A stretch of DNA of 64,000 bases from Pseudomonadota bacterium (GTDB lineage Bacteria; Pseudomonadota; Gammaproteobacteria; Steroidobacterales; Steroidobacteraceae): NCBI GenBank assembly GCA_018241505.1, contig JAFEDS010000028.1, positions 1 to 64,000 on the forward strand. The letters are read 5' to 3'. Both the position numbers and the translations under genes were made by a program. A model generated the notes under the pieces. It was not told the DNA's origin, did not search any database, and saw nothing but the letters and a program-made list of their open reading frames with translations. Shown here in pieces: positions 15,006 to 20,775 of this stretch. Positions within the stretch are counted from its first letter, which is position 1; each line of letters opens with the position of its first letter.

Positions 15006-17099
15006 TCAGATGATAGTGACCAGCAACAGGGCCACGATGTTGATGATCTTGATCAGCGGGTTGATGGCCGGGCCGGCCGTGTCCTTGTAAGGATCGCCGA
15101 CCGTATCGCCCGTGACCGCGGCTTTGTGGGCATCCGAGCCTTTGCCGCCGAAGTTGCCTTCCTCGATGTACTTCTTCGCGTTGTCCCAGGCGCCGCCACC
15201 GGTGGTCATGGAAATGGCCACAAACAACCCGGTGACAATCGTGCCGATGAGGACCCCCCCCAGCGCCCGCACGCCTGCGTCTTCTCCCATCAGGAACTTC
15301 ACGGCATACACAACGACGATCGGTACGAGGATGGGCAGCAGAGAAGGAATGATCATTTCGCGAATGGCGGCCCGGGTCAGCAGGTCCACCGCGCGGGAAT
15401 AGTCGGGCTTGGCCGTGCCTTCCATGATGCCCTTGATTTCGCGGAACTGGCGCCGGACTTCATTGACGACCGAACCGGCGGCACGACCCACGGCCTCCAT
15501 GGCCATTGCGCCGAACAGGTAAGGAACCAACCCGCCAATGAACAAACCGATGACCACCGCGGGATCGAACAGCGAGAACAACTGGTGCGGGTGCCGGCCG
15601 ACGGTGTCGAGATTGTGTGTGTAGTCGGCAAACAGCACCAGGGCCGCAAGGCCTGCGGAGCCGATTGCGTAACCCTTCGTCACGGCCTTGGTTGTGTTAC
15701 CCACTGCATCGAGCGGGTCCGTGATGTCGCGAACGGCTTTCGGCAGTCCGGACATCTCCGCGATTCCGCCGGCGTTGTCGGTGATCGGGCCGTAGGCGTC
15801 CAACGCGACAACCATTCCCGTCATTGACAGCATGGACGTGGCTGCAATGGCGATGCCGTACAGACCCATGCCCGAGTGGAAGGACTCACCGAGTTGGTAG
15901 GAACCGTAGATGGCAAAGCACACGGCAATCACAGGCAGGGCAGTCGACTTCATGGACACGCCCAGTCCGGCGATGATGTTGGTTGCATGGCCGGTCTGGG
16001 AGGCGGCCGCCACGCGCTGCACCGGGCTGTATTCAGTCGCGGTGTAAAACTCGGTGATCATGATCAAAGCGGCGGTCAGAGCCAGGCCAACCAACGCACA
16101 GCCATAGAGGGAGCTGACATTGCCGGTGCCGGCCATCAACTGGTGCGTGATGAAGTAGAAGGCCACCGCGGAGACGACGCCGGAAACAATGACACCCTTG
16201 TACAGGGCGTTCATGATCTTGCCGCCTTCCTTGGCCGACACAAAGAACGTGCCGAGAATCGAAGCCACAATGGACGCAGCGCCCAGTGCCAGCGGATAGA
16301 TCAGCGCACTGAACTTGTTTGCTTCGTCGCTCGCGAACAGCAAACCGCCCAGCAGCATTGTGGCCACCAGCGTCACGGCGTAGGTTTCGAACAAGTCAGC
16401 CGCCATGCCGGCGCAGTCACCCACGTTGTCGCCGACGTTGTCGGCAATGACCGCCGGGTTGCGAGGGTCATCTTCAGGAATTCCTGCTTCGACTTTGCCG
16501 ACGAGGTCCGCACCGACGTCCGCGCCTTTCGTGAAAATACCGCCGCCGAGACGCGCAAAGATCGAGATCAGCGAGCCGCCGAACGCGAGGCCGACGAGCG
16601 CGTGCAACGCGCCTTCATCGCCAACGGATGAGCGTAGGGCTGCGAAATAACCGGCGACACCGATCAGTCCGAGTCCGACGACGAGCATTCCGGTGATCGC
16701 GCCGCCGCGGAACGCAACACTGAGTGCTGCATTCAACCCGCGAGTCGCCGCCTCCGCTGTGCGCACGTTCGCTCGCACTGAGATGTTCATGCCGATGTAA
16801 CCCGTCAGTCCCGACAGGAATGCGCCAACTGCAAAGCCGCCGGCGGTCGCCCAGCCGATGGCCACACCGAGCGCAATGAACAGAAGGATTCCGACAATGA
16901 AGATCGTCGTGTATTGACGATTGAGGTAAGCCTTGGCGCCCGCTTGAATCGCTGCAGCGATCTCCTGCATGCGGGCATTGCCCGCCGGCAGACGCAGAAT
17001 AGACATCATCGAGAACACGCCGTACAGCACGGCCAGGACACCAGCAGCGATTGCAACCCACAGCCAAGAAGCAGCATCGATCACAGGCTTCCCCCCCAA
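15006..17099 (-). CDS. hppA: Membrane-bound proton-translocating pyrophosphatase (K+-independent type)
   Basis: Couples PPi hydrolysis to H+ transport across the inner membrane. The 697 residues form about 16 membrane segments with the acidic PPi-binding motifs [20 protein letters not shown] (about 185-204) and [12 protein letters not shown] (about 220-231), plus [19 protein letters not shown] near 432-450. Lys471 in [10 protein letters not shown] marks the K+-independent class, in which K+-dependent enzymes have Ala. It lies downstream of pfp on the same strand with a 187-base gap, so it may have its own promoter. Together they link the PPi pool to glycolytic flux and the proton gradient. 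Confidence 0.96.
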
Positions 17100-17257
17100 A
17101 ACAACCAGTTGTAGTTCGGTTCAGCGGACCTGAGCGGTGAACAGTTTGACAGCTCGTAACGACCCGCCAAAAAACGCGCGGGCACTGTAGCACAACCCCC
17201 AGGCCGCCCCGCTAGCGGGCGCAGGGCCAGGACGCGGCGGAAAAGAACCCGGGCTCC

Positions 17258-17275
17258 GCGCGGCCTTTGCCGCGC
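17258..17275. repeat. GC palindrome after pfp
   Basis: A perfect 7-bp stem (GCGCGGC/GCCGCGC) with a CTTT loop lies 11 bases past the pfp stop. Its flanking sequence on the minus strand (TTGG before the stem, GGAGCC after it) matches the palindrome after hppA, showing a shared repeat rather than chance. No T-run follows immediately. Confidence 0.6.
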
Positions 17276-17286
17276 CAATTGAAAAA

Positions 17287-18564
17287 TCAGGCCTTGAAAT
17301 CGGTTTTCAGCTTGCGCTTCACGCCAACCCCCTTGATCCGGACGTAGTCCGGGAGTCCGTCCTTGTATGGCGGGTAGGCTTCGCCCCCGATGAGCGGCTC
17401 GAGGTAGCGGCGGCAGGCCTCGGTTATTCCAAAACCGTCGGCCGTGATGTATTCAGGCGGCAGCTTCTTTTCCTTGTTGGCTACCTCGGCCAGCGGGACG
17501 TGACCGATGGTCCACTTGTAGGGCTTTGAGGCCTTGCGAACGATGGTCGGCATGACGGCGTTGACGCCTTTGACGGCGAGCTCGACAGCCGCCTTGCCGA
17601 CCGCATAGGCCTGGTCCACGTCCACCTTTGATGCAATGTGTCGCGCCGCACGCTGCAGGTAGTCGGCAACCGCCCAGTGATATTTGTACCCGTGCGCCTC
17701 GCGGACCATGTTTGCCACGAGCGGTCCGACACCACCGAGTTGTGTATGTCCGAACGCATCGGTCGTACCGGCGTCGGCGAGGAATTTGCCGTCCGGAGTT
17801 GCGCTGCCCTCGGAAACGACGATGACGCAAAAGCCATAGTCGGTGACGCACTGCTTGACTTTGCCCAGGAACTTGTCTTTTTCGAACGGCACTTCGGGGA
17901 ACAGGATGATGTGCGGCGGATCGCCCGCCTTGCGTCCCGCAAGTCCACCCGCGGCGGCTATCCAGCCGGCATGGCGCCCCATCACTTCGAGAACAAATAC
18001 CTTGGTCGAGGTCCGCGCCATCGACGCCACGTCCAGCGCCGCTTCGCGCGTGGACACAGCGATGTACTTCGCCACGGAACCGAATCCGGGACAGCAGTCA
18101 GTATGCGGCAGGTCGTTGTCGACCGTTTTGGGCACACCGACGCAGGTGATCGGATAGCCCATGGACTCGCCGATCTGCGAGACCTTGAGGGCGGTATCCA
18201 TGGAGTCGTTGCCGCCGTTGTAGAAGAAATAGCCAATGTCGTGCGCCTTGAATACTTCAATCAGGCGCTCGTACTCAGCCTTGTTCTGCTCCAGGCCCTT
18301 GAGCTTGAATCGGGCCGAGCCGAAAGCCCCGGCGGGGGTGTGCTTCAGGCCTTTCAGGAGGGCCGGGCTTTCCTTGTAGACATCGATCAGGTCCTCGGTG
18401 AGCGCGCCAATGATGCCGTGCCGCCCGGCATAGAGCCGGCCAATCTGGCGGGGGTGTTTTTTCGCGGTCTCGATGACACCGGCCGCCGAGGCATTGATGA
18501 CGGCGGAGACACCACCTGACTGGGCGTAGAACGCGTTCTTGGGGGCGGTTTTTTTCTTGGCCAT
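17287..18564 (-). CDS. pfp: Pyrophosphate-dependent 6-phosphofructokinase
   Basis: Reversibly phosphorylates fructose 6-phosphate using PPi instead of ATP. From the ATG at 18564 it is 425 residues. PPi specificity is read from GGND (117-120, Asp where ATP enzymes have Gly) and PKTVDND (145-151, Lys in place of Gly); Asp149 is the catalytic base. Other family motifs are MGRHAGWIAAAGGLAG and FGITEACRRYLEPLIGGEA. A start at 18618 would add an unlikely leader. hppA lies downstream and adk is divergent, an arrangement that fits PPi-based energy saving. Confidence 0.93.
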   Translation of the reverse strand: MAKKKTAPKNAFYAQSGGVSAVINASAAGVIETAKKHPRQIGRLYAGRHGIIGALTEDLIDVYKESPALLKGLKHTPAGAFGSARFKLKGLEQNKAEYERLIEVFKAHDIGYFFYNGGNDSMDTALKVSQIGESMGYPITCVGVPKTVDNDLPHTDCCPGFGSVAKYIAVSTREAALDVASMARTSTKVFVLEVMGRHAGWIAAAGGLAGRKAGDPPHIILFPEVPFEKDKFLGKVKQCVTDYGFCVIVVSEGSATPDGKFLADAGTTDAFGHTQLGGVGPLVANMVREAHGYKYHWAVADYLQRAARHIASKVDVDQAYAVGKAAVELAVKGVNAVMPTIVRKASKPYKWTIGHVPLAEVANKEKKLPPEYITADGFGITEACRRYLEPLIGGEAYPPYKDGLPDYVRIKGVGVKRKLKTDFKA

Positions 18565-18642
18565 GTTTGACAGTTGCGCACTGGTGAGGGGATGGGGCCT
18601 AAGGATAGCGCAGGGCATGGCTTTTGCGCCCGGATGACGAGT

Positions 18643-18713: not shown

Positions 18714-19820
18714 ATGCGCATTGTTCTGTTGGGGGCGCCCGGATCGGGCAAGGGAACGCAGTCTCAGCGTCTGGTGAAGGAGCACGGGATTCCGCAGATC
18801 TCCACCGGCGATCTGTTGCGCGCCGCCGTCGCCAAGGGCACGGCGTTGGGTGTTCGCGCCAAGGAGACGATGGATGCCGGCAGGCTCGTAGAGGACGAAA
18901 TTGTGCTCGGCATGATTCGCGAGCGGCTGGCCGAGCCGGATGTTGCGAATGGATTTATTCTCGATGGTTTTCCGCGCAACCTGCTGCAAGCCGACGCGCT
19001 CGATGCGTTGCTGACGGAGTTGGGTCAGCCGTTGGATGCTGTTGTGCAAATGGATGTCGAATACGACGAGCTCATGCGTCGCATTTCCGGGCGCCGCTCG
19101 TGCGCCGATTGCGGCGCCGTTTTCAACGTGTTGACCACGCCCGCGGATCGGATTGAACACGACAAGTGTCCGAAGACGGGCGAGCCGCACAAGTTGTTTC
19201 AGCGGCCGGATGACACTGAGGAAACGGTTGCGAAGCGCTTGAAGGTGTACGAAGAGAAAACCCGGCCGCTGATTGATTTCTATCGCGGGAAGGGGATTCT
19301 GCAGACCATCAACGCCGAAGGGGACGTTGAGGAAATCACCGGGCGCCTGGAGGAAGCGTTGCAGGCTGCCACGGCGCGGAAGCCCGCGGCCGCTGCGAAG
19401 CGCAAGGCGGCGCCCGCGAAGAAAAAGGCGGCCGCTGAGGCGCCGGCCGACGGAGCGGCGGCAAAGTCACTCTCGAAGAAAGCGCCGGCCAAAAAGCGGC
19501 CGGCGAAGTCGGCTGCGGGGAAGGCCCAGGGCGCCGCTACCAAGACCAACGCGAAAGACGCGGGCAAGAGAACCGCCGCTAAGGCTGGTGGTAAAGGGGT
19601 GGGCAAGGGCGCCGCCACCAAGGTCAGTGGTAAAGGGGCGGGCAAGAGCGCTGCTACCAAGATCAGTGGTAGAGGTACGGGCAAGGGCGCCGCCGCGAAG
19701 GGCGCGCGTCGCACGGCAGCGGTTGCGAAGGTGGGGCGTAAGGTGAAGAAGGGCCCGGCGCGTCGTACGACGGCGAAGAAAAAGTCGGCGGCGAAGAAGG
19801 CTGGGAAGCGGTCTCGCTAA
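18714..19820 (+). CDS. adk: Adenylate kinase with a long Lys/Ala-rich histone H1-like C-terminal tail
   Basis: Interconverts AMP + ATP and 2 ADP. Residues 1 to about 220 are a complete adenylate kinase: P-loop GAPGSGKGT (7-15), GFILDGFPRN (80-89), and a long-form LID with Cys130, Cys133, Cys152 and Thr155 at the zinc/hydrogen-bond positions. Residues 221-368 are a disordered-looking extension of Lys, Ala, Gly, Arg, Ser and Thr without acidic clusters, ending KKSAAKKAGKRSR. It holds three 13-residue repeats (292-330). The tail resembles bacterial histone H1-like proteins and should bind nucleic acid. The fusion has no stop or frame break at the junction. Ordinary adenylate kinases end near residue 215. 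Confidence 0.95.
   Translation: MRIVLLGAPGSGKGTQSQRLVKEHGIPQISTGDLLRAAVAKGTALGVRAKETMDAGRLVEDEIVLGMIRERLAEPDVANGFILDGFPRNLLQADALDALLTELGQPLDAVVQMDVEYDELMRRISGRRSCADCGAVFNVLTTPADRIEHDKCPKTGEPHKLFQRPDDTEETVAKRLKVYEEKTRPLIDFYRGKGILQTINAEGDVEEITGRLEEALQAATARKPAAAAKRKAAPAKKKAAAEAPADGAAAKSLSKKAPAKKRPAKSAAGKAQGAATKTNAKDAGKRTAAKAGGKGVGKGAATKVSGKGAGKSAATKISGRGTGKGAAAKGARRTAAVAKVGRKVKKGPARRTTAKKKSAAKKAGKRSR
19587..19703 (+). repeat. Three tandem 39-bp coding repeats in the adk tail
   Basis: Units at 19587-19625, 19626-19664 and 19665-19703 encode GGKGVGKGAATKV, SGKGAGKSAATKI and SGRGTGKGAAAKG. They are imperfect, in frame, and lie in the basic tail of the adenylate kinase. Confidence 0.8.
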
Positions 19821-19857: not shown

Positions 19858-19909
19858 GGGCTTGCGCAGCGGGGTGCGACGACGGGCTTGTGTAGCAGGG
19901 TGCGACGAT
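19858..19909. repeat. Two tandem 26-bp repeats between adk and the histidine kinase
   Basis: Copies at 19858-19883 and 19884-19909 both begin GGGCTTG and end GGGTGCGACGA plus one base. They differ at four positions, all C/T or G/A. The second reaches the stop codon of the minus-strand kinase gene. Confidence 0.75.
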
Positions 19910-20775
19910 CAGTCGCCCTGCAACTCCCGGACATTGACCTGCGAGTCATACATCTGCAGGTCAGCCGCGGCACTCTGCTGGGCAGTGGCGTGTTGGTCAG
20001 GCGAGCTTGCGCGCGGCGCTACGCGCGGCAACACCACGGTGAATGTTGACCCTCGGTTGGCTCCTTCGCTGGTGGCCGTGACCGTACCGCCGTGCAACTC
20101 AACCAACCGCTTGGCCAACGCGAGTCCCAACCCCAGGCCGGAGAATCGTTGCTCGGGAGACGTGTCGGCGCGCCAGAAGCGGTCGAACACAAACGGCAGC
20201 ATGTCACTGGCGATGCCGGTACCGGTGTCGGTAACTGAAATTTCGCAGTCCGGACCTTCGGATCGCAAGGTCACGAGGGCCAGCCCGCCGCGCGGCGTGA
20301 ACTTGATGGCATTGCTCACCAGGTGCCAGATGACCTGTTGCAGCCGGTGTGGATCGCCGAAAACCAGGCAGTCGGGCTTGGAGAATTCCTTGCGCAACTG
20401 CACGCCCTTGGCCTTGGCCATGGGCTGCAGAATATCCAGGGCGGCTTCCACAATCTCACAGATGTCGGTTTCTTCGGGATCGACGCGAATTTTGCCGCTG
20501 GTGACAGCGGCGAGATCCAGCAGGTCATCCACCAGATGGGCGAGATGGCGTGCATTGCGGGAAATGGTCTGACCGGCGGATTGAGTTTCCGTGGCATCGA
20601 GCCGGCCCAGCTCCATCAGCCGCGACCACCCCAGGATGGAATTGAGCGGCGGCCGCAGCTCGTGCCCCAGGGCCTCAATGAACTCGTCTTTCAGCCGGCC
20701 CGCGCGCTCGGCCTCGAGCCGCGCGGCGCGCTCGAACTCGAGCAGGGCACGCAGCTCATCGAGGGACTCGTTCAT
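19909..20775 (-). CDS. Soluble sensor histidine kinase
   Basis: A 288-residue kinase without membrane segments or a recognised sensor domain. A short N-terminal coiled coil (about 1-30) leads to the HisKA helix ALGHELRPPLNSILGW (phospho-His38). The HATPase domain follows, with N box HLVSNAIKFTPRGG, G1 DTGTGIASD, and G2 GLGLGLALAKRLVELHGG. The last ~35 residues are Ala/Gln-rich. It may act with a separate sensor. It lies 56 bases downstream of rnd on the same strand, so co-transcription is possible. No response regulator is adjacent. Confidence 0.88.
   Translation of the reverse strand: MNESLDELRALLEFERAARLEAERAGRLKDEFIEALGHELRPPLNSILGWSRLMELGRLDATETQSAGQTISRNARHLAHLVDDLLDLAAVTSGKIRVDPEETDICEIVEAALDILQPMAKAKGVQLRKEFSKPDCLVFGDPHRLQQVIWHLVSNAIKFTPRGGLALVTLRSEGPDCEISVTDTGTGIASDMLPFVFDRFWRADTSPEQRFSGLGLGLALAKRLVELHGGTVTATSEGANRGSTFTVVLPRVAPRASSPDQHATAQQSAAADLQMYDSQVNVRELQGD

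Follow-up and report, generated by a model that had tools for sequence, protein, structure and literature searches.

Why should an adenylate kinase (Adk), generally regarded as a housekeeping enzyme that diffuses freely, end in 150 residues of strongly basic sequence? The question is raised by a gene at positions 18714-19820 (forward strand) of the window, that is, the whole 64,000-nucleotide stretch of Steroidobacteraceae DNA that was analysed. The gene is a single uninterrupted frame running from ATG to TAA and encoding 368 amino acids. Its parts are as follows:

18714..19367, forward strand: adenylate kinase core, residues 1-218, with P-loop (GAPGSGKGTQ), NMP and LID regions (profiles, structure alignment, conserved residues)
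19368..19817, forward strand: Lys/Ala/Gly/Arg-rich C-terminal tail, 150 residues, net charge about +44 (composition, frame reading)
19560..19701, forward strand: 39-nt (13-residue) tandem repeat within the tail, 3.6 copies (TRF score 158; copies in frame)
19818..19820, forward strand: stop codon TAA (frame reading)

By sequence tests the window protein is an adenylate kinase. The core matches the Pfam family ADK (PF00406) with an E-value of 5.6e-55 and 186.1 bits (cut-off 26.8), Pfam ADK_lid is also matched, and the scores against NCBIfam PRK00279.1-2 (277.4 bits; cut-off 251) and TIGR01351 (245.6 bits; cut-off 168) exceed their cut-offs; the solved Adk 5g3y aligns to residues 1-216. Residues G7, G10, G12, K13, T15, R36, D84, R88, R123, R127, R164, D166, D167 and R175 are invariant in 26 tailed Adks including the window's. 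These include the P-loop K13 together with R36, R88 and R123, which we take to be catalytic. A search for the ADK family throughout the assembly (7.88 Mb; a draft of 46 contigs, estimated to be 93.9% complete with 5.67% contamination) returned one match, the window protein itself. The intact core and the single match in the assembly suggest that the gene supplies an active enzyme.

The tail differs sharply from the core: the computed pI is 5.07 (charge about -8) for the core and about 12 for the tail. In composition the tail has K35 R12 A47 G20, with D2, E1 and 6 Pro. An earlier note on this DNA, made from the letters alone, had described a complete adenylate kinase continuing in frame into some 148 residues of Lys/Ala/Gly/Arg sequence with 13-residue tandem repeats and no acidic clusters. 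That description is borne out on every point: there is one frame, the core profiles lie above their cut-offs, the repeats are where they were said to be and acidic residues number three in 150. Nor is there any sign of the frameshift at the junction that would have undone it: the other two forward frames across the tail contain one and six stops and read as Arg-rich rather than Lys/Ala-rich, and the third codon position is GC-rich throughout (GC by codon position in the tail frame is 0.62/0.69/0.77). The label 'histone H1-like' survives in part. The tail is long, Lys/Ala-rich, repeat-bearing and nearly devoid of acidic residues, as expected of an H1-like tail in terms of composition, but searched alone against Pfam and NCBIfam it matches no family at E up to 1, histone H1, Hc1 and Hc2 included. 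The bias correction of HMMER weakens matches to low-complexity sequence, yet a search of this kind still finds HC2 in a DksA-like protein. On these profiles 'histone-like' applies to composition only and says nothing of membership in a histone family. The same composition leads us to regard the tail as presumably disordered.

Several observations concern the surroundings of the tail and of similar sequence. The possibility that the tail derives from an H1-like gene already present in the window genome received no support: with the tail as query the next matches have E-values of 0.22 and 0.51, and no donor came to light. Elsewhere in the order there are DksA-like proteins extended at the N-terminus by a long Lys-rich stretch: that at L213:801-1658 matches Pfam HC2 (E 6e-12), and those at L211, L214 and L215 have, by eye, the same kind of extension. 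Beside adk, a histidine-kinase-like ORF (by eye; 19909-20775, reverse strand) lies between the gene and the next, rnd-like, ORF; at many loci of the genus nothing seems to separate adk from the rnd-like reading. Upstream and divergent (15006-18618, reverse strand) are ORFs resembling, by eye, a membrane H+-pyrophosphatase and a pyrophosphate-type phosphofructokinase, which would place a set of phosphate-energy genes together.

The earlier note had treated the tail as a single oddity, and this view has to be abandoned: its own suggestion, to look for the same fusion and for variation in tail length among relatives, shows the fusion to be recurrent, with tails of 50-315 aa, and absent from many relatives. 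Within the genus, an Adk match was obtained in 29 of 36 genomes searched; eight of the 29 carry a basic Arg/Lys-rich tail (L006, L014, L018, L019, L020, L023, L024 and L027), the complete ones measuring 50-79 aa (L014 is cut by a contig end), and the rest stop within about 10 residues of the core. Five further same-genus genomes, from the survey of the order, include one tailed Adk (G130 = L081, 73 aa). Most same-genus Adks are thus tailless, and the tail is therefore dispensable in the genus. The window core is 67-75% identical to same-genus cores, tailless sisters included; its tail is longer than all same-genus tails, among which L081 alone equals it in Lys content (23%).

Across the order, 144 of 148 genomes gave an Adk match, and uncut cationic tails of at least 45 aa are present in 15 of the 144, distributed over four families. 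Nine are in the window's family (G000, G001, G130, G127, G151, G061, G078, G174 and G070), one is in f5 (G040), two are in f9 (G044 and G057) and three in f16 (G051, G065 and G073); the tails of G054 and G067, cut by contig ends, stand outside this count. The survey opened every best-match frame of at least 250 aa (shorter frames cannot hold a 45-aa tail) and left out a weak second match, G115:C149 (E 2.3e-4). A search of genome contigs found six relatives, one with a basic tail (L033). Among relatives both the sequence and the length of the tail drift while its basic character is kept. At least eight gains or losses of a basic tail are implied by a quick maximum-likelihood tree built from 152 distinct cores (215 columns), although many of its forks are unresolved and some of its branches are long, which makes the figure a rough one; the count is based on 31 tailed rows and leaves out L046 and L131 (cut by contig ends) and L158 (tails of at least 30 aa, charge below +10). 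As a separate observation, the two f9 genomes with the longest Adk tails (L061 = G057 and L062 = G044) each have a second, distant and tailless Adk-like gene (34% identity).

Whole-protein alignments had suggested that in many relatives the tail lies beyond a stop codon, as it would had it arisen from a split gene or by stop readthrough. Reading the frames overturned this: what lies past the relatives' stops is an Arg/Ala/Ser-rich reading of the neighbouring sequence, which by eye is taken to be the antisense of an rnd-like gene.

It is possible that recurrence of this kind is near-neutral: GC-rich lineages may add Ala/Lys/Arg repeats by slippage at tolerant C-termini, in which case the tail would do little. 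The absence of tails from most relatives examined, the breadth of their lengths and the tandem repeats of the window tail are all consistent with such accretion. In composition, 30 uncut tails of at least 45 aa (those cut by contig ends being left out) were compared with controls consisting of the 100 codons 3′ of the stop, further stops skipped, in 114 Adk genes that count as tailless (fewer than 20 aa of tail). The controls contain a median of 1% Lys, none of the 114 reaches 10% Lys, and their net charge per residue has a median of +0.12 and a maximum of +0.28. The tails have medians of 28% Lys, 12% Arg, 25% Ala and 1% acidic residues, and a median net charge of +0.40 per residue; 27 of the 30 contain at least 10% Lys, the remaining three being Arg-rich and from the same genus as the window. 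Net charge lies between +0.29 and +0.55 per residue in 29 of the 30, with acidic residues at 0-6%; the exception, L033 (+0.17), falls within the control range and is not separable by charge. The window tail is set apart from the controls by its Lys content, its net charge (+0.29) being barely above the control maximum. Judged by composition, the recurrent Lys-rich tails of Adks are more than chance read-through.

Signs of purifying selection on relatives' tails point in the same direction. In nine pairs of sister species, tail dN/dS is 0.06-0.62 in eight and 1.03 in the ninth (L018/L081), a pair that speaks for accretion; the pooled value is 0.34 (bootstrap 0.28-0.42), and the bootstrap upper bound for single pairs is below one in seven of the nine. 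Core dN/dS in sister-species pairs is 0.06-0.21. A separate run with other code on 12 pairs placed all tails below one, although the two runs share pairs and are not independent. These values are to be read with the knowledge that protein-guided alignment of low-complexity sequence favours amino-acid matches and so lowers dN/dS. The window's own tail is in neither run because no close relative has the same tail.

Similar tails are found on other proteins. In the window genome there are at least two: the alpha subunit of succinate-CoA ligase (L208:463-1581, contig C29), which ends in a like Lys/Ala/Arg basic tail, and a tandem glyoxalase-domain protein (L185:628-1764, contig C16), whose Lys/Ala/Pro tail is about 100 residues long and which shows, over residues 243-375, a weak match to the tail portion of the PRK13808 Adk model (E 2e-4). 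The ligase alpha subunit was matched (E up to 1e-60) in 29 of the 30 comparison genomes checked, from a set of 31. Within the window's family it has a basic tail in 19 of 23 assessable genomes, the window's included (relatives' loci among L217-L245), four others have only 4-16 residues past query residue 281, and one is cut; in f9 and f16 the tail is present in none of five. With query residue 281 as the starting point these tails are 58-118 aa long, which includes a few residues of the normal C-terminus. In the window's family the ligase tail accompanies a tailed Adk in nine of nine genomes and an untailed Adk in 10 of 14, so that there is no strict coupling between the two. In other genomes of the order, the bearers of Lys-rich tails include nucleic-acid binders: topoisomerase I, Ku and ribosomal protein L17. 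Proteins with no evident nucleic-acid role are also among the tail carriers: besides the ligase and the glyoxalase-like protein, a wax-ester-synthase-like protein.

A codon-pattern search of the window genome, with patterns that are narrow and do not amount to a census of tails, found Lys/Ala runs in the glyoxalase-like protein, the ligase alpha subunit, a DNase-II-like ORF and a micro-ORF. The last (L068:1489-1539, contig C46) encodes 16-17 residues that are nearly all Lys and Ala (MAKAKKKA...) and lies, its neighbours being judged by eye, between an EVE-domain-like gene on its upstream side and an rpiA-like gene on its downstream side. A Lys/Ala micro-ORF is present in three same-genus genomes (L186, L187 and L189) with a near-identical upstream stretch, and like patterns occur in four more.

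The tails on the ligase and the glyoxalase-like protein of the same genome are, again, consistent with accretion. Against it stand the pooled dN/dS, the Lys content that separates tails from controls, and the consistency of charge across separate lineages, and on this evidence we consider accretion an unlikely, though not a negligible, account of the tail.

The explanation we prefer, and to which we give an even chance, is that the gene encodes a working adenylate kinase held on nucleic acid by a disordered polycationic C-terminal tail. The tail would bind DNA and/or RNA by charge and without sequence preference; binding would gather Adk at the nucleoid or in parts of the cell rich in RNA; and there ATP-using enzymes would release the ADP and AMP on which Adk acts. 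The activity, the disorder, the binding, the relocation of the enzyme and its usefulness are things that we infer. The tails of HupB, TopA, PhaF and AlgP act as charge-driven tethers, and for this reason the Adk tail, too, would be expected to bind polyanions, with nucleic acid first among them. The interpretation in the earlier note is supported in part: the tether to DNA or RNA that it proposed agrees with what has been published on comparable tails (PMC9239181, PMC5676037, PMC7398561, PMC3574117), and its other proposal, a nucleoid protein, would be a candidate role. The nucleic-acid tether is favoured because the core is intact, the ADK family has a single match in the assembly and cationic tails recur at the same junction; because charge is kept while sequence and length drift, and relatives' tails have signs of purifying selection; and because bearers of Lys-rich tails in related genomes include topoisomerase I, Ku and ribosomal protein L17. 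It is weakened by the tailless state of most same-genus Adks, by tail carriers with no evident role on nucleic acid, by the charge of the window tail, so close to the control maximum, and by the L018/L081 pair.

Alternatively, the relevant polyanion may be polyphosphate. The tail would bring Adk to granules, where PPK2-type kinases convert AMP to ADP and Adk converts 2 ADP to ATP and AMP, such that stored polyphosphate would be cashed locally. AlgP of Pseudomonas aeruginosa, which has a 154-aa H1-like tail, is reported to associate with polyphosphate granules, and truncation of that tail to perturb the granules in their size, number and spacing (PMC9239181); that polyP:AMP phosphotransferase and Adk together regenerate ATP is already in print (a title cited in PMC8776046), and the window genome contains matches to PPK1 and PPK2. 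The kinases are not, however, associated with the tail: PPK2 is matched in 13 of 15 Adk-tailed and 12 of 16 untailed genomes, PPK1 in 14 of 15 and 15 of 16, and one genome with a tailed Adk (G061) has a match to neither. Furthermore, AlgP itself, when polyphosphate kinases are lacking, appears to go to the nucleoid (PMC9239181). A polyphosphate role for the Adk tail is not favoured and seems to us rather improbable. The PPK2-type match of the window genome (C11:26838-27508), it may be added, is split into two neighbouring pieces that lie in different frames, and is possibly a broken or misread gene.

The tail might also act on the enzyme rather than on its location, by balancing the acidic core, by altering solubility or oligomer state, or by contacting anionic substrates or lipids. 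The contrast in pI between core and tail is suggestive of such a role, but the tail overshoots the charge of the core about five-fold and tailless sister enzymes with cores 67-75% identical manage without one; we regard this as very unlikely. In a contaminated draft of many contigs one could imagine that adk has been run together with unrelated sequence, be it through chimeric assembly, a frameshift or an overlooked stop, but the junction is clean, the coding signature is in frame and many other genomes share the architecture, so that an artefact is scarcely credible.

If the tail does fix Adk to nucleic acid, or to a condensate, then these bacteria would balance their adenylates locally. One may go further and suppose, as a speculation to which we attach little weight, that the window's family grafts a polyanion-binding tail onto enzymes that produce or balance ATP (Adk and succinate-CoA ligase alpha), thereby holding part of the nucleotide supply on the nucleoid, RNA or polyphosphate: a metabolic address tag that has come and gone repeatedly. 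The tail's repeated appearance and disappearance among sister species, combined with the parallel tails of the ligase, provides natural pairs of tailed and untailed enzymes with which the significance of enzyme location could be tested.

How does the window protein relate to systems already described? A literature search returned, among the matches listed (titles and abstract openings, with subscription papers and preprints outside its scope), no paper on a tailed adenylate kinase or a tailed succinate-CoA ligase, which is weak evidence of absence. Among the closest known systems is the NCBIfam model NF010381 (PRK13808.1; 335 positions), which we take to be built on Bradyrhizobium-type proteins and whose name and description make no mention of a tail. 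The likeness is plain: an Adk with a Lys/Ala-rich C-terminal tail, the model itself extending into the tail. Nevertheless, the window protein reaches 215.7 bits where the cut-off is 426, its best stretch being 1-127, and by this profile is not a member of NF010381/PRK13808. The cut-off is exceeded in eight of 299 genomes of the phylum, all of family f61 (L101-L108; tails of 91-116 aa), in a sample that was opened in part and gives no rate for tails of other types; one f61 genome (G270, L112) falls below the cut-off and is tailless. The NF010381 group differs from the window protein in having a core with a shorter LID (193 aa), which is 42-44% identical and distant in the core tree. The window Adk is best regarded as a further enzyme with an H1-like tail, probably of an origin separate from that of PRK13808.

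Among the proteins on which the tether is modelled, AlgP presumably has no fused enzyme, and its tail, as we understand it, is made of KPAA repeats, whereas the window tail has just 6 Pro in its 150 residues. The AlgP tail is nonetheless, like the window's, basic and H1-like, C-terminal and of similar length, and it is disordered (PMC9239181), as the window tail presumably is. More generally, the low-complexity regions of prokaryotic proteins with DNA-binding terms are reported to be enriched for Lys (PMC6821194). TopA, the actinobacterial topoisomerase I, is, like the window protein, an enzyme with a Lys-rich C-terminal tail, and is described as more likely to leave DNA when its lysine repeats are missing (PMC7398561); DNA, however, is the substrate of TopA and not of Adk. 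HupB, the mycobacterial HU, has a comparable tail of the PAKK/KAAK type, which is reported to be indispensable for nucleoid association (PMC5676037), but the HU-type domain of HupB itself binds DNA. Finally, the phasin PhaF unites a cargo-binding domain with a basic, disordered domain at its C-terminus that is reported to bind DNA while unfolded (PMC3574117): the cargo of PhaF is a storage granule, and it performs no catalysis.
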